A stretch of 35,793 nucleotides of DNA, from IMG/VR virus record IMGVR_UViG_3300035126_001490, positions 1 through 35,793 of that record; one strand, written 5' to 3'. How positions within the stretch are numbered: the stretch's first letter is position 1; every line of letters begins with the position of its first letter. The notes beneath the pieces were generated by a model. That model did not search any database. It was not told the DNA's origin and saw nothing but the letters and a program-made list of their open reading frames with translations. The position numbers and the translations under genes were made by a program. Source of the DNA: a virus. This document shows positions 3,038 to 34,374 of the stretch, piece by piece.

Positions 3038-3047
3038 GGTATAAGTA
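3038..3047 (+). promoter_or_regulatory. GGTATAAGTA promoter element, copy 2 (non-coding unit)
   Basis: Exact copy of the element, extended to GGTATAAGTAAAGTA, the same 15 bases found at 14862-14876. No credible gene follows before the terminator at 3202-3224, so it appears to drive a short RNA. Confidence 0.65.
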
Positions 3048-3226: not shown

Positions 3227-6223
3227 CTAATACTGCTGATAGAAGTAGCGGGCCGCCTCCCTGCACATCAGAATTGAGTGGGCAGCGTCATCCGGCTCAG
3301 AAGGTCTATGGTCGTATCGAAGGCCGTGCACCCCTCCGAACTCAGCGTAGATATGCTCAATATCTACAAGGAAATCATGAGACTGCTCCCATGGCGGAAA
3401 GATGAACTTCTGGTTTTTTAGGTCATCAAAAAGGTCCGTGAGAACTTCTGTGCGGTTAAGCTGAACCTTATGACCCACAGGGTCGTACTTCTGACGCTCC
3501 TTCTGCATGCCGTTATGCTGAAACTTGATCACGCGACGAGGTCCAAACACGTCTTCTATGGTATCGTTCACACCCCACCCAAAGCCCCAATCAGACCCGA
3601 TCATGACTGCGTTGAACGCTTTACAGATCTGTATAATCTCACGCACGCAGTTACGGGGCAGCGCCTCTTCGCCTTTGAAACGCTTCTGAAAGAAAATGTA
3701 GAACTGCTTCGGATTGATGAACATACCGAGAGTTAGTACTGTATAAGAGGCGGTCTTAAGCCTGCCCTTGAAGTTTCGCTCGGTACCGTCTGCACCTTCA
3801 CCCCAGTCTATGCCAGCAAACACAGGCTGGTTCTGTGTTACTTCATCTGGCCTCCAGCGATAGGGGTGCTGCGGGCTGCACAAGCGCATCAGCTCAAAGC
3901 GCGAAATGGGCTTACTGGCCGAGTCGTATGAAAGCCCCAAGACTTCGTTATAGAACTGACCCTTCGAGTAGTGCTCCTTTTTCCAGACAAGCTCTTTCCA
4001 TTTCGTCGGAGACTGCATCCACGGAACCATAATCTGGTTCATATGGTAGCCGACCATGTCGTCTGTATTGTTGAAGGCAAACCACTTGCCTTTGGACGGA
4101 TCGATACGTTTTCCGCACTTATTGCAGATAGGGTACTCTTTACCGATAGACTTCTCGTCTAGGAAGTTCCAGTGGATTGGGATGTGAGCGTCGCAGGGTA
4201 CCAGCCATTCACACTGGTTACTGCTCTGCCACATTGTCTCGATATAGTTGTCCATCGTCAGAGGAGTGCCTGCAAAGATGACTTGAGGGTCCTCGGCGTG
4301 AGACAGCACTTCCATGATGACTGGGATATTCGCGGACAACATCGATTGGATCTCATCGATCATGAGTTCGTTGGCCGAGAGACCGCGAACACGCTCGGCG
4401 TTTAGGAAGGCCGATCTTAGGAAGATCAGGCTCCCGTTCGTAAAGCCCTTTTCGAACACCTGACTAGAGACCGAGGAGTCAATGAAGTACTTATTGATGA
4501 TGGGGCTATCCTGGGTCCATGGGGACAGCTTTCCGTTCGAAAATTGACGAGTCTGAAGATGGCTTGGGGATACGTAGACCGCCTTATTGTAAGGGCGGAC
4601 AATCGACCGGGTGATCAGGTAGTTGGCAAGCAGAGTTGAGTTATGCTGTACAATAAAGTTAGATATAAAGGTCTCGTTGCTAGTTTGGAGTGCCCACGTT
4701 TCTTTTTCTCCCACGTGTTCGATTGATATAATCTCATCCCAGAAGGTGTCTGACTCGCACAGAGAGGTGAGTGTTGGTTCTTCTAGTATGTTAGCAATCT
4801 TAGTGATCTTTTCGTAAGTAGGACTATACGAAGACGAGAGCTTGATCGCAGCCAGTGCTTTTGTCTTTGGGTTATCCTTCTGCCAGTACGTTCCTCTTTC
4901 TTCTCTAAGACGCCTTACCCACGCATGCACTTCTTTAGGGAGGGTATCGTAGTTGCTATTGGGAGATGTAGATGCAACATATTTCCCCGATTTCCCAAAA
5001 AGGGGGCCTAAAGCTTCGCAGAATATTTTTTTAGAGCGTTCAGTTACAACTGTGAGCAGGTGTGCGGGCTGAGCTCCTGCGGGAGTCTGAACCCGCCTAG
5101 AGACTTGGATTCCAAGTTTTCTAAGTAACGCCTCTACTTGGTCTGCCATCACAGGGCTTGTGGTGCAGTAGGTCGCATAGAGAGTGCCGTTTTTTGAGTT
5201 CTCACAGTAGCCGTCAGTACACCAAAGCCCTCTAAGCAGCTCGATGGTGGACTCTCGGTCCCACTCAAAGACTTCTTTTGGAAGATGTTTGGTGTGTGAT
5301 CTTTGCTGGAACAGATCTTCTTCCAGCATGAGCCACTTAGCTAGCCATGATCGTATGCTGAGTTCTACGCGGGCGTAATACTCTCTGCTGGGAAAAACAT
5401 TCGGTACAGTAGGATATCCGTTGGCCTCTGAAAACAGATCCAGTACGTGCGCGAGAAATTCTTTATTCCTCGTGTCGGTAGAGAGGGTGATCTTTCGCTG
5501 ACCATTTTTCTCGTACTTGTAAAAATAGCCATCCCCAAAGAGAGCTCCAACTAAGAAAGCAAATCTAAAGTTCTTGTTCCCAAAAAACCCAATATGCCGG
5601 GGAGAGGCAACTTTGTCGCCTACCACAAGATCGGCTGCGAGGGTCCATCCTGATAGCTTGAATAGGGGGTGGTTAGGGGTGCATTCGAAAGACTTACCTG
5701 AGCGCGTTGTAATTCTGAGGCAGGGCTGTGTGCCGTTTGATTTCAGAGCCGCTACCGAGACTGGCATTTGTTTTAGCAAGTCGGGGTCAAAACCCACAAT
5801 CAAGTCTCCGGGCTTGAGGGTCTGAATAGCCGTTACGCTGCCATTTGCTAAGTGAACGAGGGAGCCAGTAGGGAGGCACTTTTCATTCTGACGGGCCGTC
5901 TTAAAGATCATCCTAGGGTGCTTATTGTTGTAGCAGGGGTAAAGGTACTCACGCCCCTTGAAGCTGAAGGGAGCGCCGTCTAAGTAGACCAGGTTATGAA
6001 TCCAGTCGGTCATCTTCGCTTTGATGAAGTGCTTGGAGGTCCCGTCGGCTTGGAGGGTCTTTTGGACTTTCCAAGCAAGTTTTGGGGGTGTTTTGGAGTG
6101 GGCGCGCGTCTCGGAGGAGTGTGCTTTGTTTTTAGGTTCTACGTCATGACCCGCCGCGCCTGTCTCCTGTTTAGAGATTTCGTCTTCATTGGGGGAATTC
6201 GAGTCGTCGTAGTCATCGCGCAT
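3227..6223 (-). CDS. terL: terminase large subunit with in-frame intein
   Basis: The 998-residue precursor packages phage DNA into the procapsid as an ATPase-nuclease. An intein occupies residues 116-528, leaving a 585-residue mature enzyme, a normal TerL length. ATPase: Walker A is rebuilt by splicing as TARQNEK plus ST (residues 109-115, 529-530). Walker B is LMIDE (620-624), and the coupling motif is AGTP (651-654). A CxxC pair at C700/C703, with C671 and C677, may bind zinc. The RNase H-like nuclease has acidic residues in GIDWGEG (D806), GSDWGFG (D878) and PDDAAH (D978, D979). Start ATG 6223 has no clear ribosome site; a stem-loop (6246-6276) lies in the leader. The usual Gly before the Walker A Lys is Glu here. 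Terminase function is very likely. Confidence 0.93.
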   Translation of the reverse strand: MRDDYDDSNSPNEDEISKQETGAAGHDVEPKNKAHSSETRAHSKTPPKLAWKVQKTLQADGTSKHFIKAKMTDWIHNLVYLDGAPFSFKGREYLYPCYNNKHPRMIFKTARQNEKCLPTGSLVHLANGSVTAIQTLKPGDLIVGFDPDLLKQMPVSVAALKSNGTQPCLRITTRSGKSFECTPNHPLFKLSGWTLAADLVVGDKVASPRHIGFFGNKNFRFAFLVGALFGDGYFYKYEKNGQRKITLSTDTRNKEFLAHVLDLFSEANGYPTVPNVFPSREYYARVELSIRSWLAKWLMLEEDLFQQRSHTKHLPKEVFEWDRESTIELLRGLWCTDGYCENSKNGTLYATYCTTSPVMADQVEALLRKLGIQVSRRVQTPAGAQPAHLLTVVTERSKKIFCEALGPLFGKSGKYVASTSPNSNYDTLPKEVHAWVRRLREERGTYWQKDNPKTKALAAIKLSSSYSPTYEKITKIANILEEPTLTSLCESDTFWDEIISIEHVGEKETWALQTSNETFISNFIVQHNSTLLANYLITRSIVRPYNKAVYVSPSHLQTRQFSNGKLSPWTQDSPIINKYFIDSSVSSQVFEKGFTNGSLIFLRSAFLNAERVRGLSANELMIDEIQSMLSANIPVIMEVLSHAEDPQVIFAGTPLTMDNYIETMWQSSNQCEWLVPCDAHIPIHWNFLDEKSIGKEYPICNKCGKRIDPSKGKWFAFNNTDDMVGYHMNQIMVPWMQSPTKWKELVWKKEHYSKGQFYNEVLGLSYDSASKPISRFELMRLCSPQHPYRWRPDEVTQNQPVFAGIDWGEGADGTERNFKGRLKTASYTVLTLGMFINPKQFYIFFQKRFKGEEALPRNCVREIIQICKAFNAVMIGSDWGFGWGVNDTIEDVFGPRRVIKFQHNGMQKERQKYDPVGHKVQLNRTEVLTDLFDDLKNQKFIFPPWEQSHDFLVDIEHIYAEFGGVHGLRYDHRPSEPDDAAHSILMCREAARYFYQQY
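4640..5878 (-). other. intein with LAGLIDADG homing endonuclease inside TerL
   Basis: Residues 116-528 of the terminase precursor (413 aa) form a complete intein. It begins with Cys116 (CLPTGSLVHLANG, block A). Block B is CTPNHPLF, with the Thr-x-x-His pair T182/H185. It ends at FISNFIVQHN with His-Asn528, followed by Ser529 as the +1 nucleophile. Two LAGLIDADG-type helices are seen at about 222-233 (FAFLVGALFGDG) and 328-338 (ELLRGLWCTDG), each with the acidic residue needed for cutting, so the endonuclease may still be active. Insertion lies between the Walker A Lys and Ser/Thr, the most conserved site of the host protein, as expected for a homing element. Removal is needed for a working ATPase. 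Confidence 0.93.
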
Positions 6224-6753: not shown

Positions 6754-6823
6754 TCATCTCTAGTAACAGTTTTTTTAGCTGATCATACTTTATGTGCGCA
6801 TCAAAAGCGGCTACGCTAATTTT

Positions 6824-7360
6824 ATGTTTACTCAAGGATTCTCCAAGGTCGCGGCATCAACGTTATCGCGCCGACTCCAGAAAGAGCTTGGTAGTCGCGT
6901 GTCAGCTGCCTACAAGAAGAAAATTAAGACCATTAGAAAGTCATTCAGCCCTTTTTCTGGTCAGACCAGTGTATCGGCTCAAACAAACCCTGTTTACGTG
7001 AATGCCAAGAGAGCTTTAAAGGCTAAATCTACGTGGGACAAGGCCCCCGATCAAATGGCGTATCTACTCGGTAGCGGGACTCAAGTAGACGAATGGGGTC
7101 GCGGCGTTATTCGACCCATAGTTAATGAAGCGTTGGTTGAAGGGGAAGCTAAGTACTCTAAAAAAATTATACCTAAGTTAAAACAATTAGCTCGGCTTCG
7201 CATGGATGATTTAAAGCGATACAAAAAGCTTAGGGGTCAGTCCGAGGGCTACAAGTTTCCTGTAGAGGTCCCCGACTACCATCTTGCAGAGAATGCTCGT
7301 AAAAACTCTGAAAAGTTAGAACTAAAAGGCGCCCCAAAGTTAGAGTTAACTCTCGGCTAG
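6824..7360 (+). CDS. basic protein with GFxK N-terminal tag
   Basis: The start is set at ATG 6824, giving MFTQGFSKVAASTLSRRL, because this matches the N-terminal peptide of small minus-strand proteins at 15724, 22815, 23222 and 26746 (for example MGFTQGFKKEAM). A GTG at 6794 in the same frame is possible. Neither start has a clear ribosome site. The 178-residue product is strongly basic, with many Lys and Arg, predicted helical and without a membrane segment. It is the only tagged protein on the plus strand. A DNA-associated or internal virion protein would fit the charge, but this is inference. Confidence 0.65.
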   Translation: MFTQGFSKVAASTLSRRLQKELGSRVSAAYKKKIKTIRKSFSPFSGQTSVSAQTNPVYVNAKRALKAKSTWDKAPDQMAYLLGSGTQVDEWGRGVIRPIVNEALVEGEAKYSKKIIPKLKQLARLRMDDLKRYKKLRGQSEGYKFPVEVPDYHLAENARKNSEKLELKGAPKLELTLG

Positions 7361-14050: not shown

Positions 14051-14375
14051 TGTACACGCTTGTGAGGTGTTTATCTTCAAGAGAAGTCTCATTCCAGATG
14101 TGTATGTGAAGTTCTACTCTGATAAAACGGAATTTGAACTCTACGAGGATGACTACTTTAAGGTAGACCTGATGCACTTTCTGCAGCGAATGGGATACAA
14201 GGGCCACCACTTTGATCGCGCAGAACTTGGGATGCAAGGACACAACTTCGTGGTGTTTGAGCCCGGAAAGTCTTTTGAGTCGTTCGCTAAGAAGCTTGGC
14301 TGGATTGATGAAGCTGGCCCAGATCCTGTAGGCGAACAGCAAGAACTTTTTCAGGACAATTCGCTGCTTCACTAG
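13989..14375 (+). CDS. hypothetical 128-residue protein
   Basis: ATG 13989 follows GGGGAGAGAG and overlaps the preceding gene by 62 bases. The frame is kept to its own stop at 14373-14375, where the ssb promoter begins. The protein is soluble, aromatic-rich and mixed alpha/beta (DVYVKFYSDKTEFELYEDD). No motif recognised. The large overlap is unusual, but both frames have good ribosome sites. Confidence 0.65.
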   Translation: MDWEQERISLGNGLFRSRNGDVHACEVFIFKRSLIPDVYVKFYSDKTEFELYEDDYFKVDLMHFLQRMGYKGHHFDRAELGMQGHNFVVFEPGKSFESFAKKLGWIDEAGPDPVGEQQELFQDNSLLH

Positions 14376-14384
14376 GTATAAGTA
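14375..14384 (+). promoter_or_regulatory. GGTATAAGTA promoter element, copy 3 (ssb)
   Basis: Exact copy whose first base is the last base of the previous stop codon. The ssb ATG lies 61 bases after the element. It is followed immediately by a perfect hairpin and a palindrome in the leader. Confidence 0.75.
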
Positions 14385-14861: not shown

Positions 14862-14871
14862 GGTATAAGTA
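14862..14871 (+). promoter_or_regulatory. GGTATAAGTA promoter element, copy 4 (non-coding unit)
   Basis: Exact copy 23 bases after the ssb stop, extended to GGTATAAGTAAAGTA like copy 2. The next 330 bases hold no convincing gene but are rich in secondary structure and end in a terminator. Confidence 0.7.
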
Positions 14872-14877
14872 AAGTAA

Positions 14878-15204
14878 GGGATAGTTAGTAGTAGCTCCAA
14901 ACAGGTCAAAAATAACTTTGCATGTAAGTTATATTTCATCTTTTGAGTGGCTACGAATGCTATTGCACTTACTCAGTAACCATCACACCCAGAATCTTAA
15001 TCTGTTTAAACATCCGTTCCAGTGACTGGGCGGCAATACGATACGTTGTTACTTGTAAAGCAACTTTACAAGTCTGGTGGATTAGGGTTCTGGGTAGTGA
15101 GTTACAGAGTGGGTTGCGCCACCTGTATCCCCTAACGTGCACGTTGGGGAGATATGGGTGGCGGTAACCCTAACCGCAAGCTCGGGAAACCCCCGAGATT
15201 TTTT
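14878..15204 (+). ncRNA. putative structured non-coding RNA, about 325 nt
   Basis: The unit is bounded by the promoter element at 14862 and the terminator at 15181-15204. A perfect 10-bp hairpin ACTTGTAAAG-CAA-CTTTACAAGT lies at 15051-15073. A long imperfect hairpin spans 15111-15170: GGGTT/AACCC, GCCACC/GGTGGC, TGTAT/ATATG (with G-U pairs), CCCC/GGGG and AACGT/ACGTT pair in order around a GC loop, about 25 pairs. An alternative stem GCGGT/ACCGC (15161-15177) would compete with its base. The only frame of any length starts at a TTG (14943) without a ribosome site. The 5' end is inferred. It could also be the 3' part of the ssb transcript. Confidence 0.6.
15181..15204 (+). terminator. intrinsic terminator of the structured RNA
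   Basis: CTCGGG (15181-15186) pairs with CCCGAG (15192-15197), followed by ATTTTTT. On the opposite strand the same T-run bases form the stop region of the convergent gene ending at 15203. Confidence 0.8.
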
Positions 15205-15724
15205 AGTAGTATTGATTACCGCTGTAAACAACTGGCGGCGGGGTTTGCGGCTGTGGATCGTTCCCCCCACCTAGGGCTGCCTGCATAGCTCCGTAGGCAG
15301 CAACACCTGTTAGGACGGGATGGCGAGCGGCAAATGACGGTCCTTTGGGTTTGTTTTTTAAGTCACGCACGCGCTGTGCCCGCTCGGTGGCTTTTTGCAA
15401 AGCGTCATTCGCGGTGTTGAAGTGTTCGCTCGGTGTCATTTGAGGGAGGCCTTGCTGCGCGCGGCGAGCTGCTTCACGCTGAACGGCACCTTCGGCGTAG
15501 TTTTGGCCAAAGGGGGTCTTCCCTTTAGCTGCCCTAAATCCTTCGGTGAAGTTACTGAGGCCCTGGGTTTGGATATTCCTAGGTTTGAAAGGCGCTTTTA
15601 TTGCGTTCTTAGCGCTTCTTGCCGCCGCCGAGAGTGACCCCGCAGCCTGTCCCATCCTGCTACCTACCGTAGACATTAGGCCTCCGAACATGGCCTCTTT
15701 TTTAAATCCTTGTGTGAATCCCAT
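15203..15724 (-). CDS. small virion-like protein with GFxK tag
   Basis: The 173-residue protein starts MGFTQGFKKEAMFGGLMSTV, with the N-terminal tag shared by four other proteins here. It is rich in Ala, Gly, Lys and Arg, with a weakly hydrophobic Ala/Gly helix near the C-terminus (HPVLTGVAAYGAMQAALGGG), and ends GNQYY. Its ATG overlaps the stop of the polymerase gene (TAATG), so the two are translationally coupled. It may therefore accompany the polymerase in the particle. Function unknown. Confidence 0.75.
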   Translation of the reverse strand: MGFTQGFKKEAMFGGLMSTVGSRMGQAAGSLSAAARSAKNAIKAPFKPRNIQTQGLSNFTEGFRAAKGKTPFGQNYAEGAVQREAARRAQQGLPQMTPSEHFNTANDALQKATERAQRVRDLKNKPKGPSFAARHPVLTGVAAYGAMQAALGGGNDPQPQTPPPVVYSGNQYY

Positions 15725-18700
15725 TAGTAGCTCTCTTTCTTCTTACCAAAGCTTGCGCCGTATGCGAATGCCGGGACGGGGTGCCGGCCTTCTAACTGAC
15801 TGGACCAGCTTTCGGCGGCTCCTTGAGTCAATGCTTGCTTGACGTATCGGTACCCAAGTTGACTCATCCAGTCCTTTCTAAGAAGGGGTATCCTAGTAAT
15901 ACCCTCTAGCTGGGGGGTATGTACAATAGGGTCTTTTACTACCTCAATCTTACCATTCTGAGCCGCGGATTTCAGCTTGGGAAGGTCTCTGTCGGTAATT
16001 TCATGGAACTTGGGTAGGTTTCCTACTGGGTTTGCTAGGTTGTAGCCAACGGCGTCTTCGGGCCGTACCGATACCTTCCGGCTTTCGTTGTAGTGCTCGG
16101 CCGCCGTGAAAGGGATTAGGTCTCCTGGTAAAACCCCTGCGTGTCTTGGGGCGTTTTTGACCAGAGTGCTGTCAGCAACGGACCTGACCACAGTCTCGAA
16201 TACTTTGCGGTGAGTATTCACGCCTTGGTCGACAAAGGTCCTTTTTAGCTCGTCTACAATGTATTCCTGAGCCGCTCCCATGCCTTTTTGCTTCAATAAC
16301 TTATGTGGGTTTAAAACGCCTTCTGACAGTTTATCCCCCGCTTGAACACTCTCTCCCACTTTTACGGCGGGGTTCAGACCTGGGCGTACTGTGTGCAGCT
16401 TTTCCCCCACATGAATGTGAAATCCTCCGGCAGGGCTCCGTCCTATTTTGGTGACCTTACCCGCGACATCTGCCGTGGTTGCTTCACCGGAAACGTACTT
16501 AGGCATGTTCAGCAAGTCAGACACACGCTTGAACCCGGAAACCTGAGGGGCTCCGCTAGAGACCCCGCCGGTGTGGAACGTACGCATCGTCATTTGAGTG
16601 ACGGGCTCACTCATTGTCTGGCCCATCTTAGCCCCGATGTTCTCTCCGATCTCGGGGCGCTTTCCGTGCTCATCTATCCCGAAGCAGTGCGCACAAGTCC
16701 CTTTAGTCTCTAAACACTTTAAAGGTGACCGGACTGTCAAAGTCTTGACCCCGCCCCTCTTCATGACGCTGAGGAGCTGTGGAGTCACTTGAGTATTTCG
16801 AGCGGATCCGTGCTGGTCGTGCGCAAGATAGCGATCCATTATGTCTGTACTGTCTACAGACATAACGGTCCCTTTTTTGGTTCCGCAATCATCGGCGCTT
16901 ACTAGATTGTTGATAGTGGCGGCCATGATATCCTTGTTCAGCGCGCCGGGCTTGGAGGTGGCTAGAGCTCGGTCGATCATCCCTTTGCGCACTCCGTACG
17001 CGCTGACAAAGTAGTCTGAGGTAGTTACCCCCTCCGCGTAAGATTTCTTGATGGGAACGGGAACTTTCCTGTCCTTTGCGTCCATAAGTATGCCCGGAGC
17101 AGAGACAATCTGCATAAGCTGAGAGTCGCTGCCGCGAGCCCCGCTGGAGACCATGTGGTAGAAGTTGTTGTCTGTTTTCTTTAGTTGGTCTTTGGTGCGG
17201 TTGTAGGCCTCTTTTGCGACGCCTTCGTACATGTCCGCAATTTTCTTGTCCAACTCAGGCCCGGGCTTGTGCGCTCTACGTAGCGCCGCAGCTTGCTGAT
17301 CTGCGCGATGGAATAGGGTGTCGCGCATCTTAGTATCGATTTGTAGATCTTTTATGGAAGTCGTAAAGCCGCGCTCGTAGGCGTGCTCGTCGCCCATCAA
17401 TTTCAGCTTCTGGACTAGGTTAGGGAACTCTTTCGGCAGCTCGCGCGCCAGCTGGTTATAGAGCGTCTTGGATTTCTTACCATCCAGGCTTTCCGAGACG
17501 TGGTATTTCGGAGGTAGTACGGAGTTGAGTTTTTTACGCCCCTCAGGGTTTTGTGACATGAAATAGATGCCAATCTGGCTTTCCTGCGAGGGTACAGTCA
17601 TCAACTCTCCGGTGCCTGGCTTGAATAGATTCTGCGAAGGCAACATCTTGTGACTCTCTCGCAGCGCCTCTTCTGTGGTGGGCACGTGGATGTTGACCGC
17701 GTCTCCGTCGAAATCCCCGCCGTATCCTTTAAGAACCAGGGGCGGGACTTTAATAGCCAGGCTGTCCGTAAGGACGGGCTTGTGAGCCATGATCGAGAAC
17801 TTATGAAGCGATGGCGCGCGGTTCATTAGAACGGTGCGCTGCTTCATCGTGTCCATGAGCATTTTCTTAGCCAGAGGAGTTTTGGCCTCAATCTCTTTTC
17901 TAGCAAAGTCAGATTTATATCCGTTCTTACCAAACTCTCGGATTACGAACGGATTGAATACCTTCCAGGCCATTTTCTCCGGAACCCCAATCTCGTCCAT
18001 GTGGAGCTCCGGACCCGCTGTAATAACTCCTCGGCCAACCAGATCCTGTCGTTTGCTCAGGAGCTTTTGGATAAAAAAGCCCTGCTTTGGAGTTTCATTT
18101 GCGATCTCGTCGATAAACCCATTGATAGGCTGGTCTTTGCCGCGCGTAAGGACGGGCTCAAGCCCTGCGACCGCTCGGGTGGCTTTATAGGTCTCGTTTC
18201 GTATCTCTCCCTTGACCCTGTCTGGAAGGAACTTCATCACCGGGTATTTCGAAGTCTCCGTTAATATACCCACGTTCTGGTAGAGCAGGTTTGGAGACGC
18301 TACGACAATCCCTCTGTCCTTGCTTTCTTGGATGGGTCGGAACATCGGCGGTATTACCGGGATATGCTGTCTTAGATAAGCCTCGTCAGGCTTCATTCCC
18401 AGATCATCCAGCGCCTGTAGTATTCGTATTTTTTTATTTAGGCCGTCTAGGTGCCGGGGGTCACTAGATTTCCTCAGCAGCGCACGCGTTTTGGTCAGCT
18501 CACCTTGGACATCGATGTTTTTGAGAAGGGACTCGAAAGCTTTGCCTCCAGTCAGACTCCCTTCTGTTTTCTCGCCGGATATTTTTCCATCCTTGGAAAG
18601 ATGGCGTGTACCCGCAATCAGACCCTCGTAATCAGGCTGCTTGATACCGGCTAGGTTTTTAATAGCCGACTCAAAAACCGGGTTGGGTAGTTTTTCGGAT

Positions 18701-21700
18701 AGGCTCATGTGCGCGTACCGATTACCGTTCATGCCGCCGGTTATGCGCACGTCAAAGAAACCGTTAGGTATTTCCTTCATGTTTTTCGCGTAGAAAAACT
18801 GAGGATCTGTGATCTGCCCGTTGCTGATTTTCTTTACGTCTTCGTCAGTCATGGGGGCCAGACGCACTTCGTTTCCAACTTTGTGCGTGTTGACGCCTGC
18901 GCCCCGTATCATGTGCAGAAACTTCTGATAGGCGAAGCTTTCCTTTGGCGGGGGGAGTGGGCGCCCCTGCTCCAGGGCCCTCCAGAACTCATCGTTTCTC
19001 TCAGACTTGATGTGCGCATCGAGGAGGTTCTTTTTTGCTCCGTGAGAGAGCATTGAATAGAAGGTGAGCTGGTCTAGGGTCTTAGTCCCCTCTTCGCCGC
19101 CTTTGATTGGCTGTAGGTTGGCGTCGTACCCCTCTCCGGGCATACGAGCTGAGAAGCCAGCCTTACCAGTTTTGGCGAGGCGCAGGATATGAGGCATGCC
19201 TACGTGCACGTCACCGATCTTCTTACCCTCGGGGGTGTACATAGTTTCAACGTCAGAAATCCCGTGCTTCTTAAGTTCGTCTAGAATTTTCTTATTAGTA
19301 TTTTCGGCGGAGAAGTTTTTGATCTTGTACGGCTGTCCCACTTTAGCCGCAATCTTTCCAGCCGCCGACTCGTATAGCTGGCCTAGGTTAATACGGCCGA
19401 CGACTCCGTGCGGATTGAGAAACACATCAGGAACAGAGCCGTCCGAGAATTTAGGAGCATCTTTGTCTGCGATGACTTTGGTAATGACTCCTTTGTTCCC
19501 GTGAACGCCCGATAATTTGTCCGACTCTTTTGCAGGCTCTACTGCCTTGACGTACACAAGGACTTCGCTGCCCCTCTTAGCGATATCGGTAACTACTCCA
19601 GGGAACTCTCCGTTGTAAGTCACGGAGGCGTTCGACCACGGCATGATCAAACTTTTGTTTAGTTTTCTCAGGCTCATGTTTTCTGGGTTGTTTAAGTTGT
19701 AGTGCAGTCCTGCAATCAAGACCTGGCCCGGCTGAACTACCTGACCCTTTTTGATAATTCCGCTATCGTCGTACTTGGTGACGTCATCCTTTTTTAGGAT
19801 GTTAGGATAATATCCCAGGAATCTTTTGAAGTTTAACTCCGTCTTTCCTTTTTCAAGCGGGAATCCTTGCTTGTATATCTGCTCTGCTGCCAATTTTTTG
19901 GCGGCACTCTCAGTGATGACAATTCCGTCTTCGAACGTGAGTCCGGGGTACGGAAGATACGCTACCTTGAGGTTAGTGCCTAATGCGAGCTGGCCGTTTT
20001 TGGTGAAATTACTGTCCGCAACTACCTGACCCCCCTTCACTCTATCCCCCACTTTTACCGTAGGGGTGTGGTGCAGGTGAGTTTTTTGGTTTAGCGGGAA
20101 GTTATTGTATAGAGGAACTTTCTTGCCGCTAATCTTAATATGGTCTGGGGTTATTTCTTGGACCACCCCATCATTAGTCGCCTTGGCTGAAAACTCGCTT
20201 CCGATAAGCTCATGGAAAGTTTTCTTGTCGTCCACAAGTGTCTGTACCAGAGGGGCTTCGCGGTGCACCAGCGGCAGGGTCTGGCCAAGCATCTTGGCGG
20301 CCATCACCGCGCGGTTACCTTGGTCGTTCTTTAGGAAAGGTACCAGATTGGTGGCGTAGCTGAACAGCCGTGAGGCCTCTGGTATTACGTAGTCGACTTG
20401 CTTGGATGGTACTACAGACACCTTACCTTCGTGCTGGACCCGCACCTCAGCCGCATTTCTGAACTTGGCTTCGTGGATCTCATCAGGGAACGCAACGACC
20501 TTGGAGTGCAGCTCTCGGGGGGTAAGAAATTCCAGTTTTCCAGTCCTTACATTTTTAACAGCCGTCCTAAGCTCGCGGCCGTCTTTAATCACGCCGGCAG
20601 ACATGTGCATGGTCGTGCCGATTTTCTCGCTTTCTGGAGTATGCACTGGATCTATATATCCAAGGTGTGACGGGTGGACCTCGCGCAAGTTGTCCGCCAC
20701 GGCATGCGCACTTGTAATGCCTCCAGTACCATGAACAGTTAGCTTGTTCATTTCGGAGATCATGTGGACTGGATTATACTGCTCCGGAGTAGAAGTTCTA
20801 TTGTCACTGACGAAGAAGTTTTCAACGGGCGACGTCAGTTTGCGGAAGTCGATCATCCGCTTTAGGTTATTGCGGGATCCTAAGTGGCGCGACAGCATCC
20901 GTTTAAGAGCGTCCTGCTCTTTCTTGCTACCTAGCTTGTCGTGGATCATGTCCTCGACTGATCTTATTTCTTTGAATAGCAGGTTCTCTGGGTCGTCGGC
21001 CTGCGCCTTACCTTGATAGGCAGCGAGGATCTTGCCCGAAGTGTCTAGTAGTAGCTTAGATGACAGCTGACTGTGCTCGTGACCCAAGGTCATCCCGGTT
21101 ACCTTGGGGTCAAGTTGCGTCGTCTTTGCATACTCGCGTAGCTTTTCTTGGGCGGTGCTTGCGTTGTCTGTGGTTGCTTTGGCCAGCTTGTCCGCAAATC
21201 CGATAATATGCTGGGGCGACTCGCGTTTGTTCGCTGCAAAAACCTGTTCACCCCAGGCTTTGATCATGTCGTTGTCAGAAGCTCCGAGCGCTTTCAGCAA
21301 CGGATACAGGGGCTTGTGAGATCCCCCGACTTTAATGGTGTATCTGTTTGTGCTCGGGTCTAAGTTTATATCAAAGTTTTGCGTGCGCTCCCCGCCCAGA
21401 GAGATCATTCCTTTGAAAGTATCTCCCTTCTGAGACCTGACTACATAGGCCCCCGGTTTACGGATCATCTGGTTTGCAACCTGATATTCGTTGCCCTTAA
21501 CGATAAATGAGTTTCTCGGGGTCAGTTTCGGTATAGTGGACAGCTTTACCTTATCTAGCCTGTCTACGATCTTACCGTCGGGATCCTTAAGGACGAGGCT
21601 TGCGTACACCGGAAGTCCCCACGTGCCGCCCCCTAGTTTGGTTTTTTTCTGCGACGTGTAGTCCTGAGTGTCCAGCTCACGCTCGTCAACCCAGATCTTG

Positions 21701-21810
21701 GCAAGCTCCATCCGGTGACCGTTTTTCTCAACGGGGAACAGCTGCTGGTACGCCCCAATGACCTCGTCGGTCAGTGCCTTAAATTGATCGGATCCGGAAA
21801 GTGTTCTCAT
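15724..21810 (-). CDS. single-chain beta/beta-prime DNA-directed RNA polymerase
   Basis: The 2028-residue protein joins both large subunits of a multisubunit-type RNA polymerase. The beta half (about 1-1030) has FIVKGNEYQVANQMIRKPGA, REVHPSHLGYIDPVHTPES, PFLKNDQGNRAVMAAKMLGQ, GLTFEDGIVITES and LSGVHGNKGVI. The beta-prime half follows with VGRGVITAGPELH, LMNRAPSLHKFSIMAHKPVL and the catalytic Mg site DFDGD (1366-1370). It also has a bridge helix (YFVSAYGVRKGMIDRAL, about 1597), zinc cysteines C1642/C1699/C1706/C1709 and a trigger-loop helix (TMRTFHTGG, about 1740). It is far shorter than E. coli beta plus beta-prime (about 2750), and the beta-prime N-terminal zinc finger is missing. No full alpha, omega or sigma is seen nearby. 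All main active-site elements appear intact. Placement among virion genes allows packaging in the particle. Confidence 0.95.
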   Translation of the reverse strand: MRTLSGSDQFKALTDEVIGAYQQLFPVEKNGHRMELAKIWVDERELDTQDYTSQKKTKLGGGTWGLPVYASLVLKDPDGKIVDRLDKVKLSTIPKLTPRNSFIVKGNEYQVANQMIRKPGAYVVRSQKGDTFKGMISLGGERTQNFDINLDPSTNRYTIKVGGSHKPLYPLLKALGASDNDMIKAWGEQVFAANKRESPQHIIGFADKLAKATTDNASTAQEKLREYAKTTQLDPKVTGMTLGHEHSQLSSKLLLDTSGKILAAYQGKAQADDPENLLFKEIRSVEDMIHDKLGSKKEQDALKRMLSRHLGSRNNLKRMIDFRKLTSPVENFFVSDNRTSTPEQYNPVHMISEMNKLTVHGTGGITSAHAVADNLREVHPSHLGYIDPVHTPESEKIGTTMHMSAGVIKDGRELRTAVKNVRTGKLEFLTPRELHSKVVAFPDEIHEAKFRNAAEVRVQHEGKVSVVPSKQVDYVIPEASRLFSYATNLVPFLKNDQGNRAVMAAKMLGQTLPLVHREAPLVQTLVDDKKTFHELIGSEFSAKATNDGVVQEITPDHIKISGKKVPLYNNFPLNQKTHLHHTPTVKVGDRVKGGQVVADSNFTKNGQLALGTNLKVAYLPYPGLTFEDGIVITESAAKKLAAEQIYKQGFPLEKGKTELNFKRFLGYYPNILKKDDVTKYDDSGIIKKGQVVQPGQVLIAGLHYNLNNPENMSLRKLNKSLIMPWSNASVTYNGEFPGVVTDIAKRGSEVLVYVKAVEPAKESDKLSGVHGNKGVITKVIADKDAPKFSDGSVPDVFLNPHGVVGRINLGQLYESAAGKIAAKVGQPYKIKNFSAENTNKKILDELKKHGISDVETMYTPEGKKIGDVHVGMPHILRLAKTGKAGFSARMPGEGYDANLQPIKGGEEGTKTLDQLTFYSMLSHGAKKNLLDAHIKSERNDEFWRALEQGRPLPPPKESFAYQKFLHMIRGAGVNTHKVGNEVRLAPMTDEDVKKISNGQITDPQFFYAKNMKEIPNGFFDVRITGGMNGNRYAHMSLSEKLPNPVFESAIKNLAGIKQPDYEGLIAGTRHLSKDGKISGEKTEGSLTGGKAFESLLKNIDVQGELTKTRALLRKSSDPRHLDGLNKKIRILQALDDLGMKPDEAYLRQHIPVIPPMFRPIQESKDRGIVVASPNLLYQNVGILTETSKYPVMKFLPDRVKGEIRNETYKATRAVAGLEPVLTRGKDQPINGFIDEIANETPKQGFFIQKLLSKRQDLVGRGVITAGPELHMDEIGVPEKMAWKVFNPFVIREFGKNGYKSDFARKEIEAKTPLAKKMLMDTMKQRTVLMNRAPSLHKFSIMAHKPVLTDSLAIKVPPLVLKGYGGDFDGDAVNIHVPTTEEALRESHKMLPSQNLFKPGTGELMTVPSQESQIGIYFMSQNPEGRKKLNSVLPPKYHVSESLDGKKSKTLYNQLARELPKEFPNLVQKLKLMGDEHAYERGFTTSIKDLQIDTKMRDTLFHRADQQAAALRRAHKPGPELDKKIADMYEGVAKEAYNRTKDQLKKTDNNFYHMVSSGARGSDSQLMQIVSAPGILMDAKDRKVPVPIKKSYAEGVTTSDYFVSAYGVRKGMIDRALATSKPGALNKDIMAATINNLVSADDCGTKKGTVMSVDSTDIMDRYLAHDQHGSARNTQVTPQLLSVMKRGGVKTLTVRSPLKCLETKGTCAHCFGIDEHGKRPEIGENIGAKMGQTMSEPVTQMTMRTFHTGGVSSGAPQVSGFKRVSDLLNMPKYVSGEATTADVAGKVTKIGRSPAGGFHIHVGEKLHTVRPGLNPAVKVGESVQAGDKLSEGVLNPHKLLKQKGMGAAQEYIVDELKRTFVDQGVNTHRKVFETVVRSVADSTLVKNAPRHAGVLPGDLIPFTAAEHYNESRKVSVRPEDAVGYNLANPVGNLPKFHEITDRDLPKLKSAAQNGKIEVVKDPIVHTPQLEGITRIPLLRKDWMSQLGYRYVKQALTQGAAESWSSQLEGRHPVPAFAYGASFGKKKESY

Positions 21811-21873: not shown

Positions 21874-21883
21874 GGTATAAGTA
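21874..21883 (+). promoter_or_regulatory. GGTATAAGTA promoter element, copy 5
   Basis: Exact copy in the divergent gap between the polymerase gene and the plus-strand gene at 21937, with 53 bases from the element to the ATG. No matching minus-strand copy is visible for the polymerase gene itself. Confidence 0.75.
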
Positions 21884-22429: not shown

Positions 22430-22464
22430 GAAAGACCCCCGCGAAGGTGGGGGTCTTTCTTTTA
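22430..22464. terminator. bidirectional intrinsic terminator
   Basis: GAAAGACCCCC (22430-22440) pairs perfectly with GGGGGTCTTTC (22449-22459), followed by TTTTAG on the plus strand and TTTC-rich sequence on the minus strand. It separates the convergent genes 21937-22425 and 22462-22815. The minus-strand stop codon overlaps the plus-strand T-run. Confidence 0.88.
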
Positions 22465-22815
22465 GTACGTGTAGTAGTCTTGAGGAGACGGCTCCGTCAT
22501 CTTTTTGTAGCCCTTGTAGGCGGCGCCTGTGTAGACACCAGCCATTCCCAACGAGGGGGCTGCTTTTCCCAAAGCGGAGAATACGGCGTCTCTACCGCCG
22601 GCGCTCTTCATCGCGTTGATGAGGCCGCCTTGATGAGAGGCCGCATCAGAGATGTGCTTCAGTCCCTTCATCTTCAGCGTGTCGCCAATTGTGTGTCCGC
22701 CGGAATCATAGACTCCTTTTGCGATGGACTTCCCTGCCTGTATGGTGCCGGCTAGCCCTTTAGCGATGCTTTCCGTTAGGGTAGCGGTCTTTTTAAATCC
22801 GTGTGCAAAACTCAT
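22462..22815 (-). CDS. small virion-like protein with GFxK tag
   Basis: The 117-residue protein begins MSFAHGFKKTATLTESIAKG and ends QDYYTY. The middle is Gly/Ala/Lys-rich, with a mild hydrophobic helix near the end (APSLGMAGVYTGAAYKGYK). Tag, composition and aromatic end resemble the 15203-15724 product. Its start overlaps the upstream stop (ATGA). It is the last of a coupled run beginning at the portal. Likely a minor virion or head-associated protein. Function unknown. Confidence 0.75.
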   Translation of the reverse strand: MSFAHGFKKTATLTESIAKGLAGTIQAGKSIAKGVYDSGGHTIGDTLKMKGLKHISDAASHQGGLINAMKSAGGRDAVFSALGKAAPSLGMAGVYTGAAYKGYKKMTEPSPQDYYTY

Positions 22816-23222
22816 TTATTACCACTCCGTTTCTGCTTCTGAAAGCGCCCCGGCTTATCTGCAAAGCCATCTCCCACCGACTCGTGACTCCAGGGAGTGG
22901 ACCGGTCATACTTAAGCTGGGTTGCTACAGTGCTCGCCGTTTGCATTGAGCTCCCCGTCCCTGGGGTGTTGTAGGAATCCCCGGATGCCTGCGATAGCTT
23001 CTCAACAACCAGTCTAGCAACCTCGCTTGGATCTGCGCGGCGACCTTTTTTAGTTTTTTGAGGTTTCTGCTCTTCTAGTGGCTGATAGGTCTCGATGCCG
23101 CTAGGAGACATCCCGCCTGGCCCGGGGGCAGAAGGCGTTCCGGTGTCAAACTCCTTGAACTCCAAGCCTTGGTTGTTATGACCGAAGGCGGCTATCTTAA
23201 TAAATCCAAGCGAAAAGCTCAC
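22812..23222 (-). CDS. small virion-like protein with GFxK tag
   Basis: The start is GTG 23222, overlapping the upstream stop as GTGA. The 136-residue product begins MSFSLGFIKIAAFGHNNQG, again the shared N-terminal tag, then becomes polar and probably disordered (Pro, Ser, Gly, Lys, Gln). It ends in a basic tail (KPGRFQKQKRSGNK). No enzyme motif. The strong contrast between a conserved tag and a low-complexity body suggests that the tag is a delivery or docking signal. Confidence 0.75.
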   Translation of the reverse strand: MSFSLGFIKIAAFGHNNQGLEFKEFDTGTPSAPGPGGMSPSGIETYQPLEEQKPQKTKKGRRADPSEVARLVVEKLSQASGDSYNTPGTGSSMQTASTVATQLKYDRSTPWSHESVGDGFADKPGRFQKQKRSGNK

Positions 23223-23443: not shown

Positions 23444-23817
23444 TACTTTGACTCGCCCCGGCCCGACTCCCGGTTGATGGCGTTCATAAGCACCTCACGC
23501 GGGGGAAGCATGACAAACGGATCTCGCTGCTTCATGTTTTTAATATGGTACCTGAGCTCGGCCTCTCTTAGTCTGTTGTCCACTTCCTGCGAAGCGGCGC
23601 CCAGAGTGCCAAAAGCTAGCCCGCCGCCAGCCGCGCCTAGCAGGCCGGTCAGAAGTGGGCTCTTCCCGTGGTGAAATAGTGCGTAGGTGGCTGCGGTCGG
23701 TCCTGCCACCAGCGCAGCTTTAATGCCCGTTTTGAAACCTTCGACAAAAGGACTTTTACGGTAAATCTGGTCGGCCTGCAGACTCTCGTCGATGAAGGCA
23801 TTCTTTCTAAGGCTCAT
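23443..23817 (-). CDS. small protein with glycine-rich hydrophobic segments
   Basis: ATG 23817 overlaps the portal stop (ATGA). The 124-residue protein has a related internal motif SPFVEGFKTGIKAA at about residues 22-35, then two hydrophobic Gly/Ala segments (ALVAGPTAATYALF; LLTGLLGAAGGGLAFGTLG) that could span a membrane as a hairpin. A charged helical end follows. Overall it resembles the tagged proteins with the tag shifted inward. A virion membrane-interacting or head-neck protein is possible. Confidence 0.72.
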   Translation of the reverse strand: MSLRKNAFIDESLQADQIYRKSPFVEGFKTGIKAALVAGPTAATYALFHHGKSPLLTGLLGAAGGGLAFGTLGAASQEVDNRLREAELRYHIKNMKQRDPFVMLPPREVLMNAINRESGRGESK

Positions 23818-25757
23818 ATGCCACCGCTTGCCCTTCTAGGAGGCCGCTGCTCTGGTAGCGGTTCTATTTTCTTTTGCCCCGCCGGCTGCGGGGGTATTTG
23901 GGCGTTTGCCTGATTTTTGGCTAGTTGCTGAGCAAAAGTAGACGCGTGCTGTTGGTCAAGCTCTTGTTGCTGCTGCGCTTGCTGGCGTGCCTGCTGCTCC
24001 GCCTGTTCCTGCTGTATTTGCTGCGCCTGCATCTGTTGTTGCTGTGCAGCCGCCTGCCGAGTGCTAATCTCATTTTCCACAAGCTTCTTGAGGGTGTTAT
24101 CGATCATCTGTAACCGACGAAGCGATACCTCCTGAAGCTCTGGCGGAAGCTCTGCAATCTGAGAGGCCCATTCCTCAATCTGTGCCTTCGTTTTCTGGTC
24201 GGTCTCTAGATTCTTCACGTCCATCTGCTGGTTTTGCTGCTCGCGAGTCATCATCTTCTGTTGAAGAATTTGACCTTTGACCTGAGACTCGGCAGCTTTC
24301 ATCTGGCGTATTTCATTTAGTCTAGCGTCGAGCTGTGCTTCTTCCTCAAGCTTCTTACTAACCGTGGACGGATCTCTTCCAAGCTCCTGCAGCACTTCCG
24401 ACCAAGGCAGCTTACCTTGACCGGCCATCTGCATCATCATGCTGAGCTTTTGCATGTCATCCGCCATTTTGAAGTCCGAGAACCGTATCGTCTTAGGCGC
24501 CCCGATTCCTAGGTATAGTCGGACGCGCTCAACAAGCCAGATATTCATCTGAAGTATCTGTGAACGGTGATGTAGAAAGTCATTTTCTAAAGTTCGCAGG
24601 GAGATAGAACTCCCTGTCCACTGCATAGTACCGCCATAGATGAACTCTTGTGGTATTCCCATAGAGCCCACAATCGTTTTAGATAAGAAGTCCATCTCCG
24701 GAGTCAGTAGCATTGCCTTACCGTCCCCGCCAATCCGCTGGAAGCCTACGGGGAACGGAAGTACGGCCTTGTAGTTAGGATCACGTCTGCGCGCGGCTAG
24801 TTGACGCTTAATCTCATCACGCCAGCTAGACAGGTCGGTATGGACATAAGGGTCCATCTTCGAGTTGGCTTGAGGGAAGATCACATCAAACGGCACGATA
24901 TGCTCGTTCATGATAGCTTCTTGGCCGCGGCGTAGTGTGTAGAAGTAGTAGAGGTCTTTGAGCGCGTTTGCCAGTAGCGGCATTCCCCATCCCATGTCTT
25001 TTCCGGCGAGGGTGGGGGATTTGGCATGGAACAGGTTCTGGTTGTTGAGCTTAATCTTGCGCTTGCTCTTGATCGACTCGATGTACACAAGCGGAGTATC
25101 TTCAAAAATGTCAGGATCCCCGCTCATGATCTGGCGCTTCAGGCGATCGGGCAAATTGTAAAGATAAGTGTGGCGGCCAGTCGCATCGTTATACTTAATG
25201 TCGATGTACTCAGGGTTGATGCGAATGAGGCGCAGGTTCTCCATCGATTTGTAGGGGATGTCTACAATCTTGGCCTTGCCATCGCCCTTGCACTTAGGGC
25301 ACTTCATCTTAACGACGAGGTTCTCAATTTTCTTCTGCGCCGATTTCCAAGAATGCTTTGTCCGGCAGGAAGGGCACTCCAGCATTCGTGAAAACGGAAA
25401 GTGAATCGTCACGAAGCTATTGCCGTAGCTCGTGAGGTCCATGTTGCACTCCATGTTAAACAACTTGATCTGGAGTACGTTATTCAGGAGGGTTTCCCAA
25501 AACTTGACCAGCTCCCGGTTCTCGTCCTCCAGAACTAGGTCTGTGATGGGGTATTTAGCAATCTTTCGGAGGGCCGGCCCCAGAAAAGAGTTGTTCGTGC
25601 AATAGAAATAAACCCACTTAAACAGCTCTTTGACTGTTGGGGGTATGTATTGTTGACTGACGTCAAAGAATGGCGATGGGTATCTAGACTGGCGTCTAGG
25701 GTCGCCTAGTCTGAGGTCTGGATCAACATTTCCATCTGTGCTGCTGTAAGTCGACAT
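23814..25757 (-). CDS. portal protein
   Basis: The 647-residue protein probably forms the dodecameric portal through which DNA is packed and to which the tail binds. Portal-like segments are QYIPPTVKELFKWVYFYCTN near the N-terminus, LRLIRINPEYIDIKYND and LLTPEMDFLSKTIVGSMGIP. GGTMQWTGSSISLRTLEND and the helix after it match the stem/clip arrangement. An insertion with two CPxC knuckles (C128, C131, C153, C156) probably binds zinc. From about residue 480 the protein is a long helix, then strongly Gln-rich (about 570-620), with a proline-rich end. ATG 25757 follows GAGG. It starts a coupled run of small genes. Moderately strong call on overall pattern. Confidence 0.8.
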   Translation of the reverse strand: MSTYSSTDGNVDPDLRLGDPRRQSRYPSPFFDVSQQYIPPTVKELFKWVYFYCTNNSFLGPALRKIAKYPITDLVLEDENRELVKFWETLLNNVLQIKLFNMECNMDLTSYGNSFVTIHFPFSRMLECPSCRTKHSWKSAQKKIENLVVKMKCPKCKGDGKAKIVDIPYKSMENLRLIRINPEYIDIKYNDATGRHTYLYNLPDRLKRQIMSGDPDIFEDTPLVYIESIKSKRKIKLNNQNLFHAKSPTLAGKDMGWGMPLLANALKDLYYFYTLRRGQEAIMNEHIVPFDVIFPQANSKMDPYVHTDLSSWRDEIKRQLAARRRDPNYKAVLPFPVGFQRIGGDGKAMLLTPEMDFLSKTIVGSMGIPQEFIYGGTMQWTGSSISLRTLENDFLHHRSQILQMNIWLVERVRLYLGIGAPKTIRFSDFKMADDMQKLSMMMQMAGQGKLPWSEVLQELGRDPSTVSKKLEEEAQLDARLNEIRQMKAAESQVKGQILQQKMMTREQQNQQMDVKNLETDQKTKAQIEEWASQIAELPPELQEVSLRRLQMIDNTLKKLVENEISTRQAAAQQQQMQAQQIQQEQAEQQARQQAQQQQELDQQHASTFAQQLAKNQANAQIPPQPAGQKKIEPLPEQRPPRRASGGI

Positions 25758-28911: not shown

Positions 28912-28921
28912 GGTATAAGTA
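28912..28921 (+). promoter_or_regulatory. GGTATAAGTA promoter element, copy 6
   Basis: Exact copy 41 bases before the ATG at 28963. A TTGACA lies upstream at 28884-28889, but the spacing to TATAAG is 24 bases, too long for a standard sigma-70 promoter. The ten-base element itself is the conserved part. Confidence 0.75.
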
Positions 28922-32918: not shown

Positions 32919-33692
32919 TTAAGGTTTGGGCTGGATCGTATCCGCTATCCATTGGAAGACCTGACTGACTTTAGAGTAAACTCCAAATCGTTGAGGCCTT
33001 GCACATCCGTAGCCCCAGCTAACAACACCTACTAAGAGGGGAGTCCCATCCTCCATTTGGACTAGAAGGGGGCCGCCGCTGTCTCCCTGACACGAGTCTT
33101 TCCCGCCCTCGTCGAGTCCCGCACAAATCATGGTGTCCGTAATATCCCCTGGATATGCGGCCTGGCATTTTTCATCGGACTGGATAGGGACCTCTACTTT
33201 CATTAGGACCGGCGCAGCTCCGCCGCCCTCGTATAGTGATCCCCAGCCAGCAGTAATCGCCGCGAGGTCATCCAAAGGATCAAGAACTCCTCCGTCTCCG
33301 TTTAGCTGGATCGGGCTAAACCTAGAGGAGCCTTCGAGCTCGATCAGAGCGTAATCGTGATCGAACTGATTGCGAGACTCATAACTTGGGTGCTTAATCA
33401 CTTGCTTGATCTTAAACATCTCAGGCGGAGCTTCGCGAAGTCTGTGATGGCCGAGTGCGACAACCCCGCTAGCCTGGAGTCCTGGAAGGATACAGTGGGC
33501 GGCCGTTAAAACCCAGTTAGGGGCGATAAGCGACCCGCCACAAAAATGACTGCCTGTAGGAGAGCGTCTGAGAGAAGTCATGAACGGAAACTCGCCGGGA
33601 GTGGCCTCCACTCCTCCTACAATAAGAGGCTGCGGGGCCCAGGCAGTTGTAGTGGCTAATAGAAGCAGGATTGCAGATAACCGTGAAACCAT
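32919..33692 (-). CDS. secreted trypsin-like serine protease (S1A)
   Basis: The start is ATG 33692, since GGAGG lies five bases upstream; an earlier ATG at 33704 lacks this. The 257-residue protein has a signal peptide (MVSRLSAILLLLATTTAWA), then a short propiece and the mature S1 start IVGGVEATPGEFPF. The catalytic triad is His66 (TAAHC), Asp113 (DHDYALI) and Ser205 (GDSGGP). Asp199, six residues before Ser, gives trypsin specificity for Lys/Arg. Three canonical disulfide pairs can be drawn (Cys51-67, 176-190, 201-230). Activation would need cleavage after Leu, not Lys/Arg, so it would not activate itself. A near-consensus promoter element lies upstream. An intact secreted trypsin is unusual in a phage. 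Confidence 0.92.
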   Translation of the reverse strand: MVSRLSAILLLLATTTAWAPQPLIVGGVEATPGEFPFMTSLRRSPTGSHFCGGSLIAPNWVLTAAHCILPGLQASGVVALGHHRLREAPPEMFKIKQVIKHPSYESRNQFDHDYALIELEGSSRFSPIQLNGDGGVLDPLDDLAAITAGWGSLYEGGGAAPVLMKVEVPIQSDEKCQAAYPGDITDTMICAGLDEGGKDSCQGDSGGPLLVQMEDGTPLLVGVVSWGYGCARPQRFGVYSKVSQVFQWIADTIQPKP

Positions 33693-33729
33693 ACCGCCCT
33701 CCATGGCGAAATGATCGAGCAGGTTGGAC

Positions 33730-33816: not shown

Positions 33817-34374
33817 ATGAGTTACCTACACCACAAGCCTGTACCGAAGATCGTCCGCCCCCTCAAAGAGGAATGGTTCTTAGATATTCAGACGCACATT
33901 CGCGAGCTGCGTAGGGTATTCGACTGGCCCGGCGTTGCCTACCACGATAAGAGCTCCGATCCTCACGATGTCTTTAATAGATGGGTATGGTACAACCTGC
34001 CGCTACTTGTACGGTACCACCACGATCCGCAGTTCATTGCGTACGTATCCGATCTAGCTGGAAGACCTGTTAAGCCTACCTACGTATTCACTTCTATGTA
34101 CGGCGCAGACGGGATCTGCCCTCTACACGTCGACCGACCCCAGTGCCAGTTTTCAGTCGACATGCTTGTCGCGTCGAACCACAAAGACAAGCCATGGCCG
34201 ATATATGTCGAAGATGAGCCTTACATTCTGGAGCGGCCCGGAGATGCCGTCTTCTACTCCGGCACGGGCCAGAAGCACTACCGCAACCCCATGAAAGAAG
34301 AGTCGGATGCAACTAAAGTTGACCTCGTATTCTTTCACTTCGCCCCTATTGAGTGGCAAGGGGAGCTTAAGTAA
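33817..34374 (+). CDS. 2-oxoglutarate/Fe(II)-dependent oxygenase-like protein 1
   Basis: The 185-residue protein has the double-stranded beta-helix landmarks of 2OG-Fe(II) oxygenases. The iron ligands are H104-x-D106 (CPLHVDRP) and distal His154 (GTGQKHYRNP), with a nearby Arg156 and the turn ERPGDAVFYSG before it. Substrate is unknown; aspartyl/asparaginyl or prolyl hydroxylation of a protein is typical for this size. ATG 33817 has AGGAG upstream, and its stop overlaps the next gene's start by one base (TAATG). No exact promoter element is seen before it. Confidence 0.75.
   Translation: MSYLHHKPVPKIVRPLKEEWFLDIQTHIRELRRVFDWPGVAYHDKSSDPHDVFNRWVWYNLPLLVRYHHDPQFIAYVSDLAGRPVKPTYVFTSMYGADGICPLHVDRPQCQFSVDMLVASNHKDKPWPIYVEDEPYILERPGDAVFYSGTGQKHYRNPMKEESDATKVDLVFFHFAPIEWQGELK

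Follow-up and report, generated by a model that had tools for sequence, protein, structure and literature searches.

To our knowledge, the RNA polymerases (RNAPs) known from virions are T7-like, as in N4, split, as in phiKZ, or highly divergent, as in crAss and P23-45. Phage RNAPs with recognizable bacterial beta and beta' sequences have rarely been studied. Relatives of the enzyme analyzed here occur in the cultivated Salmonella phage Arash and Vibrio phage D69, where they are annotated merely as beta subunits or hypothetical proteins; in those parts of the sources that were available, the fusion is not remarked on. In Arash virions, Gp206, comprising beta and the N-terminal part of beta' (beta'N), gave 3516 spectra with 128 unique peptides and 100% coverage, the highest number of spectra of all virion proteins, while Gp216, the remaining C-terminal part of beta' (beta'C), gave 1210 and Gp10, called a sigma factor, gave 467 (PMC10585845). 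In the mReC phages (Weinheimer and Aylward 2020), the capsid proteins all belong to PF07068, and fused subunits are not described in the text on this group (PMC7481178). Our literature search, restricted to open-licence papers, found no description of the fused family reported below.

The DNA analyzed in this study, hereafter the window, is the whole of IMG/VR record IMGVR_UViG_3300035126_001490 (35,793 bases), which probably represents part of a larger genome. A preliminary description made from the sequence alone had claimed that it encodes a compact, complete bacterial-type RNAP with beta and beta' on a single chain.

Results

A single-chain RNAP with an intact active site

The RNAP gene is one open reading frame at positions 15724-21810 on the minus strand, which starts with ATG, contains no internal stop and encodes 2028 residues, beta preceding beta'. 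These are exactly the coordinates that the preliminary description had given without stating the strand; on the plus strand, the translation of the same interval is riddled with stops. The claim of a compact and complete single chain was borne out by the intact frame, the completeness of both subunit cores, the Pfam domains RNA_pol_Rpb2_3, Rpb2_6, Rpb1_2, Rpb1_4 and Rpb1_5 in the expected order, and homologous single chains in 38 contigs. The top sequence matches in the PDB (phmmer) were bacterial beta' subunits (4.9e-102). The beta half comprises residues 1-975 (18886-21810, minus) and the beta' half residues 985-2028 (15727-18858, minus), both supported by the structure models described below. 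The junction at about residues 976-984 (18859-18885, minus) was located by aligning the chain with the end of E. coli beta and the start of E. coli beta', according to which beta is joined directly to beta' with almost no linker.

Catalytic residues were located by residue mapping to E. coli, and their invariance was scored over 30 family members. All the signatures named in the preliminary description were found, each on the minus strand: the beta motif GVHGNKGVI with the catalytic K773 (residues 768-776, 19483-19509), the beta' motif DFDGD (D1366, D1368 and D1370; 17701-17715), the bridge helix region (about residues 1596-1634, 16909-17025), the trigger-loop helix with TMRTFHTGG and H1746 (16561-16593), and the four-Cys zinc site (C1642, C1699, C1706 and C1709; 16684-16887), the bridge helix and trigger loop being supported by alignment as well. 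The E. coli beta residues R678, D814, K1065, K1073 and R1106 correspond to R500, D628, K765, K773 and R806 of the window chain; in beta', R352, R425, P427 and D460/D462/D464 correspond to R1260, R1331, P1333 and D1366/D1368/D1370, the trigger-loop residue H936 to H1746, and the zinc ligands C814/C888/C895/C898 to C1642/C1699/C1706/C1709. Every one of these positions was invariant (30/30). The mapped catalytic residues are rated essential on established knowledge, and disruption of catalytic residues, which would have refuted the initial claim, was thus not found. The hallmarks of a two-barrel RNAP, namely the DxDGD triad of the beta' barrel and the beta-barrel lysines K765 and K773, are included in the invariant set. 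The protein is a two-barrel DNA-dependent RNAP and, by inference, works like a virion RNAP; RNA synthesis itself is inferred.

At the position of E. coli beta' N458, a residue in contact with the substrate ribose, the window chain has Gly, giving GGDFDGD instead of NADFDGD. Among the 30 members, this position is occupied by N in 15, G in 6, A in 6 and S in 3. In E. coli, the N458S substitution alters sugar selection only slightly, R425 being its main determinant (PMC7862312), and R425 is kept in the window chain. Several rifampicin-contact positions are altered (Q513 to S, D516 to E, R529 to K and S531 to T), from which the enzyme is predicted to be insensitive to the drug. The beta' N-terminal zinc finger, stated to be missing in the preliminary description, is indeed gone from the whole alignment, as the positions of E. 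coli C70/C72/C85/C88 are gapped in 30/30 members while homologous flanks align on both sides; the site lies at about residue 1029 (18717-18729, minus).

Structure prediction with alignment to bacterial polymerases, proposed in the preliminary description, was performed on the two halves separately owing to the length limit of the prediction. The model of residues 1-1000 (pLDDT 83.4, pTM 0.78) matched the best bacterial beta with a Z score of 33.6 and an rmsd of 4.0 over 845 aligned residues (24% identity), and that of residues 975-2028 (pLDDT 80.5, pTM 0.42) matched the best bacterial beta' with a Z score of 31.4 over 955 residues. As the rmsd of the latter was 24 A and its pTM only 0.42, the beta' domains are recognizable in the model but their relative placement is uncertain.

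Distribution and architecture of the family

The family was collected by IMG/VR scans with two alignments followed by mapping of open reading frames, and most members are metagenomic contigs. Three architectures were seen: single chain, two-piece and three-piece. Single chains of 1974-2853 aa occur in 38 contigs besides the window, several of them near-duplicates, with identities down to ~33%. The preliminary description had regarded such a chain as unusual in a phage; the chain is real, but it is not a lone oddity, being one of a large family. The phage group with this RNAP is widespread, consists of large phages and is almost undescribed. In the two-piece form, as in Arash and D69, beta+beta'N (~1520 aa) and beta'C (~610 aa) are separate genes, and the three-piece form has an additional break near window residue 1070-1085. 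None of the intact family loci was seen to be broken where bacterial beta and beta' meet (about residue 980). Breaks elsewhere were found in contigs L093, D181 and L038, with a homing endonuclease or a gap near two of them; L093 is a near copy of L092 with the RNAP frame broken in two (705 + 1376 aa), perhaps by a sequencing error. A single beta' locus was present in each of the 11 records tested (11/11).

The longer single chains carry inserts (~330-510 aa) whose ends are intein-like. These follow window residue 393, 766, 777, 804 or 1370; the site after 1370 is immediately behind DFDGD and is occupied in five related contigs. Inteins at active-site motifs must splice out to yield the enzyme, which we count in favor of a catalytic RNAP. 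Inserts at four or five separate conserved sites were noted in L002, L010, L057, L060, L061, L063, L069, L081, L087 and L090; L061 has two, and that of L002 was not flagged by Pfam.

Phylogeny and classification

The separate phylogeny of the two halves suggested at the outset was also carried out, and the beta and beta' trees agreed. In these and in the concatenated tree, the phage family formed one group and nine bacteria another, with full support in each. The cellular sample comprised these nine bacteria only, without Helicobacter and Wolbachia and without rooting beyond bacteria; the RNAPs of phages Carin-5 and YerA41 gave very long branches and were dropped from later trees. The window chain grouped with L006, L054, L013 and L055 in both half trees. 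The split architectures formed one clade (support 99-100), which was nested among single chains in the concatenated tree. As the AU test did not reject monophyly of the single chains (p 0.117), the direction from fused to split is not proven. Whichever direction holds, the beta-beta'N fusion is common to all members and therefore older than the sampled radiation.

The scores of the window chain fell below the curated NCBIfam cut-offs for rpoB (310 vs 801), rpoC (469 vs 963.5) and the fused models PRK09603 (482 vs 5372 bits) and PRK14844 (456 vs 4632), so that by score it is neither a bacterial RpoB or RpoC nor a fused-RpoBC equivalog. The mReC criterion of a phage beta/beta' clade apart from cellular sequences was met, albeit against nine bacteria only. 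The T4-type major capsid protein PF07068 was detected in 0/15 family records but in 5/5 of the phages that encode beta and beta' separately, and the mReC motif NADxDGD is absent from the window chain (GGDFDGD), its N being kept in 15/30 members. Membership in mReC was ruled out by the capsid marker, the controls for which worked. Assignment to the phiKZ type was ruled out by the single chain with one beta' locus per record (11/11), and assignment to the crAss gp66/YonO type by the clear similarity to bacterial beta' (phmmer 4.9e-102).

Partner proteins

Searches for alpha (PF01193) in 22 family records and omega (PF01192) in 14 gave no match (0/22 and 0/14), with positive results for bacterial and archaeal controls, although the records may be incomplete. 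The search for a T7-type second polymerase (PF00940) was uninformative, as no match was obtained even with the controls. Pfam sigma region 2 or 4 was not found in the near relatives G001-G003. A profile built from relatives of Arash Gp10 then revealed a sigma-like gene in these genomes as well, and in 19/22 records overall, one copy each, the three exceptions being the window fragment, G005 and G006. In all 19 records its strand was the same as that of the RNAP gene (19/19). Gp10-type proteins match Pfam sigma region 3, with a weak region 2 match in Arash. An ordinary sigma factor is also present in some family records.

Candidate early promoters

The motif GGTATAAGTA occurs six times in the window, always on the plus strand and never on the RNAP strand; allowing one mismatch, there were 10 sites against 1.4 expected. 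The six candidate early promoters, identified by motif match, are at 1533-1542, 3038-3047, 14375-14384 (upstream of the SSB gene), 14862-14871, 21874-21883 (divergent from the RNAP gene) and 28912-28921 (with GGCAAA 17 nt upstream of TATAAG). In both the window and Arash, the motif precedes genes of the strand opposite to the RNAP. In Arash, tiled without overlap over 159 kb, there were 15 copies of GGTATAAGTA opposite the RNAP strand and 0 on it, and the reversed control gave 0. The shorter form GGTATAAG was found at 29 sites opposite and 1 on the RNAP strand in Arash, where 2.3 were expected on both strands, and at 10 sites opposite and 1 on it in G002 and likewise 10 and 1 in G003. The motif was not seen in a 37-kb piece of D69. 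Most sites in the Arash early region precede a start codon by a few tens of bases, and the consensus there is GGTATAAGtAa..TGtAa. After selection of G[GTA]TATAAG, a -35-like element appeared clear in G002 and G003, as a GCAAA-type block at sigma-70-like spacing; because it was found neither in unselected TATAAG matches nor in Arash, no general -35 element is claimed. The form of the motif is similar to that of the T4 late promoter TATAAATA. As it is common to phages whose RNAPs are only 32% identical (Arash vs the window), its occurrence suggests a phage-encoded reader, which remains an inference.

Virion proteins and neighboring genes

The preliminary description had considered, from the position of the gene among virion genes, that the RNAP could be injected with the DNA. 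This received support from the homologue in Arash, the most-detected protein of the virion (PMC10585845), but packaging in the phage of the window is still inferred. Spectra per residue in Arash were ~2.3 for Gp206 (1525 aa), 2.0 for Gp216 (606 aa) and 2.0 for Gp10 (234 aa), in comparison with 1.5 for the portal and 4.3 for the capsid protein. These values suggest that the three proteins are roughly equimolar in the particles, spectral counts being crude. The virion protein list also holds other enzymes, and the dataset contains proteins with many spectra but two unique peptides.

A portal-like protein (23814-25757, minus) is conserved beside the RNAP from the window to Arash and was matched in 70 loci, with ~60% identity to L002/L006, 28% to D69 and 27% to Arash gp204 (annotated portal). 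The window also encodes a terminase large subunit with a LAGLIDADG intein (3227-6223, minus; phrog_675, GpA_ATPase, Intein_splicing, LAGLIDADG_3).

Several small proteins of the window, L002, G002 and G003 share the N-terminal tag M(x)FTxGFxKxA. The tagged frames of the window are at 6794-7360 (plus, from 6824), 15203-15724, 22462-22815 and 22812-23222 (all minus). G002 has 11 and G003 has 12 tagged proteins, 23/23 encoded on the RNAP strand and several adjoining the RNAP; the tag may direct co-packaged proteins to the capsid or act as their cleavable leader. Other genes of the window encode a trypsin-family serine protease with an apparent signal peptide (32919-33704, minus; PF00089, 7.8e-59), which is unusual in a phage, and a 2OG-Fe(II) oxygenase domain protein (34374-34985, plus), preceded by a gene without Pfam match (33817-34374). 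A very glycine-rich frame with long poly-Gly stretches (34986-35792, minus) runs off the window end. G002 (L144, L145) has a tmRNA gene and several tRNAs, and G003 (L155-L157) has many tRNAs; the ARAGORN calls of tRNA-Pyl(cta) in both may be suppressor-like or mis-typed. A scan of genome contigs for hosts matched only phytoplasma and WWE3 cellular genes, and the family was accordingly given no host.

Discussion

We consider it likely that the window encodes a virion-packaged, alpha-less and sigma-dependent single-chain RNAP that transcribes early genes, where packaging in this phage, activity without alpha, the role of Gp10 as a sigma factor and the use of GGTATAAG are all inferred. In this mechanism, bacterial-type beta and beta' on one catalytically complete polypeptide would function in the absence of the alpha assembly platform and of omega, and with no zinc ribbon. 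The particle would probably contain the enzyme along with a phage sigma-like protein of the kind of Arash Gp10, and both would be injected together with the DNA. Once in the cell, the holoenzyme would initiate early transcription from GGTATAAG(TA), a promoter of the extended -10 type that lies opposite to the strand of the virion genes, and early transcription would be independent of the host RNA polymerase. The phages of the family thus probably deliver a transcription machine of their own by injection, in order to read start signals specific to the phage. The computed basis for this proposal is the intact chain and active site, the family-wide fusion, the failure to find alpha or omega, the co-oriented sigma-like gene and the strand-restricted motif; the published basis is virion presence in the relative Arash only. 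The links of the sigma-like protein and the promoter to the RNAP are statistical and positional, the 35.8-kb window does not contain the sigma-like gene itself, and there is no biochemistry and no activity, host or packaging data for its own phage.

The contig is metagenomic, and a join of two genes by a frameshift or sequencing error had been named beforehand as a finding that would refute the claim; such a join, also as an artefact of assembly, was ruled out by the 38 full-length single-chain contigs, with ~33% identity at the lowest, and by the beta/beta'N junction kept in the isolates Arash and D69, and we give it practically no credence. Recent capture of a host fused rpoB-rpoC of the epsilonproteobacterial or Wolbachia type is very improbable. 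The best NCBIfam model is indeed the fused beta/beta' PRK09603, but the score of 482 bits is far from its cut-off of 5372, those for rpoB and rpoC are likewise far below theirs, the zinc ribbon is missing across the family, and both halves are separated from nine bacteria with full support, though the tree did not include Helicobacter or Wolbachia.

The time of action and the reader of the motif are less settled. The RNAP might be a non-virion polymerase, made from host-transcribed genes for middle or late transcription, and its presence in Arash particles a carry-over. The Arash authors mention both early transcription and carry-over of abundant enzymes in purified particles (PMC10585845), jumbo phages and P23-45 have such non-virion RNAPs (PMC7598289, PMC10770324), and the gene sits in the virion module with presumably late expression. 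This is nevertheless rather unlikely, considering that the Arash homologue is the most-detected protein in particles, beside the portal, that only one beta' locus is present per family record, and that the motif marks genes on the opposite strand. Somewhat more room must be left for the reading of GGTATAAG by the host RNAP with a host or phage sigma factor, the packaged phage enzyme doing something else, although we do not favor it. TATAAG is near the bacterial -10 consensus, the GCAAA-type block in G002 and G003 has sigma-70-like spacing, some records contain an ordinary sigma factor, and use by the host polymerase is not excluded; yet a TTGACA-type -35 is lacking, the identical 10-mer occurs in phages with very different RNAP sequences, and no other multisubunit RNAP was detected in the family.

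Beyond the packaged early RNAP that we prefer, a broader scenario is put forward only tentatively: a large and ancient phage lineage with a self-sufficient bacterial-type RNAP of one chain plus one sigma-like protein, without alpha or omega, a holoenzyme that is packaged and injected for early transcription, and a host-spanning early promoter, in which the fusion predates the radiation and a later split in beta' led to the Arash type. That the clade falls outside the sampled bacteria also has a bearing on how old phage transcription systems are. The similarity to bacterial RNAP is high enough to compare the two residue by residue, yet the phage enzyme seems to do without an alpha platform or zinc ribbon and may depend on a sigma factor. 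With a minimal holoenzyme of two genes, the reasons for alpha, omega and the zinc ribbon would become directly testable, and such an enzyme could serve as a compact tool; the virion and promoter predictions can be tested now in the cultivated relatives Arash and D69.

Comparison with known systems

Arash Gp206 and Gp216 and their D69 homologues are homologous to the window chain over the full length (31-32% identity in beta+beta'N and 26% in beta'C), with the same portal neighbor, beta fused to beta'N and no zinc ribbon; Arash further has RNAP proteins in its virions and the same promoter motif. Unlike in the window, beta'C of both phages is a separate gene of ~610 aa. The mReC phages (PMC7481178) are likewise tailed, with sequence-recognizable beta and beta' in a clade apart from bacteria, but have the PF07068 capsid, found in 0/15 records here, and the window chain is without their NADxDGD. 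The phiKZ/AR9-type jumbo phage RNAPs (PMC7598289) also lack alpha and exist in a virion form; they consist, however, of 4-5 polypeptides in two paralogous sets, with no recognizable sigma factor and far greater divergence, whereas the window family has one chain and one set. The crAss-like gp66 and P23-45 gp96/gp64 (PMC10770324) are virion RNAPs with two barrels on a single polypeptide, but show little similarity to cellular enzymes, while the window family is clearly bacterial in sequence and fold. The fused rpoB-rpoC of epsilonproteobacteria and Wolbachia has the same head-to-tail order of beta and beta', although the models are ~2840-2890 aa with the zinc ribbon and alpha, in contrast to the phage chain of ~2000 aa with far lower scores. 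So far as the open literature shows, phage, virion and single-chain RNAPs were already known, and the new feature is a bacterial-type, alpha-less fusion together with a conserved sigma-like partner.
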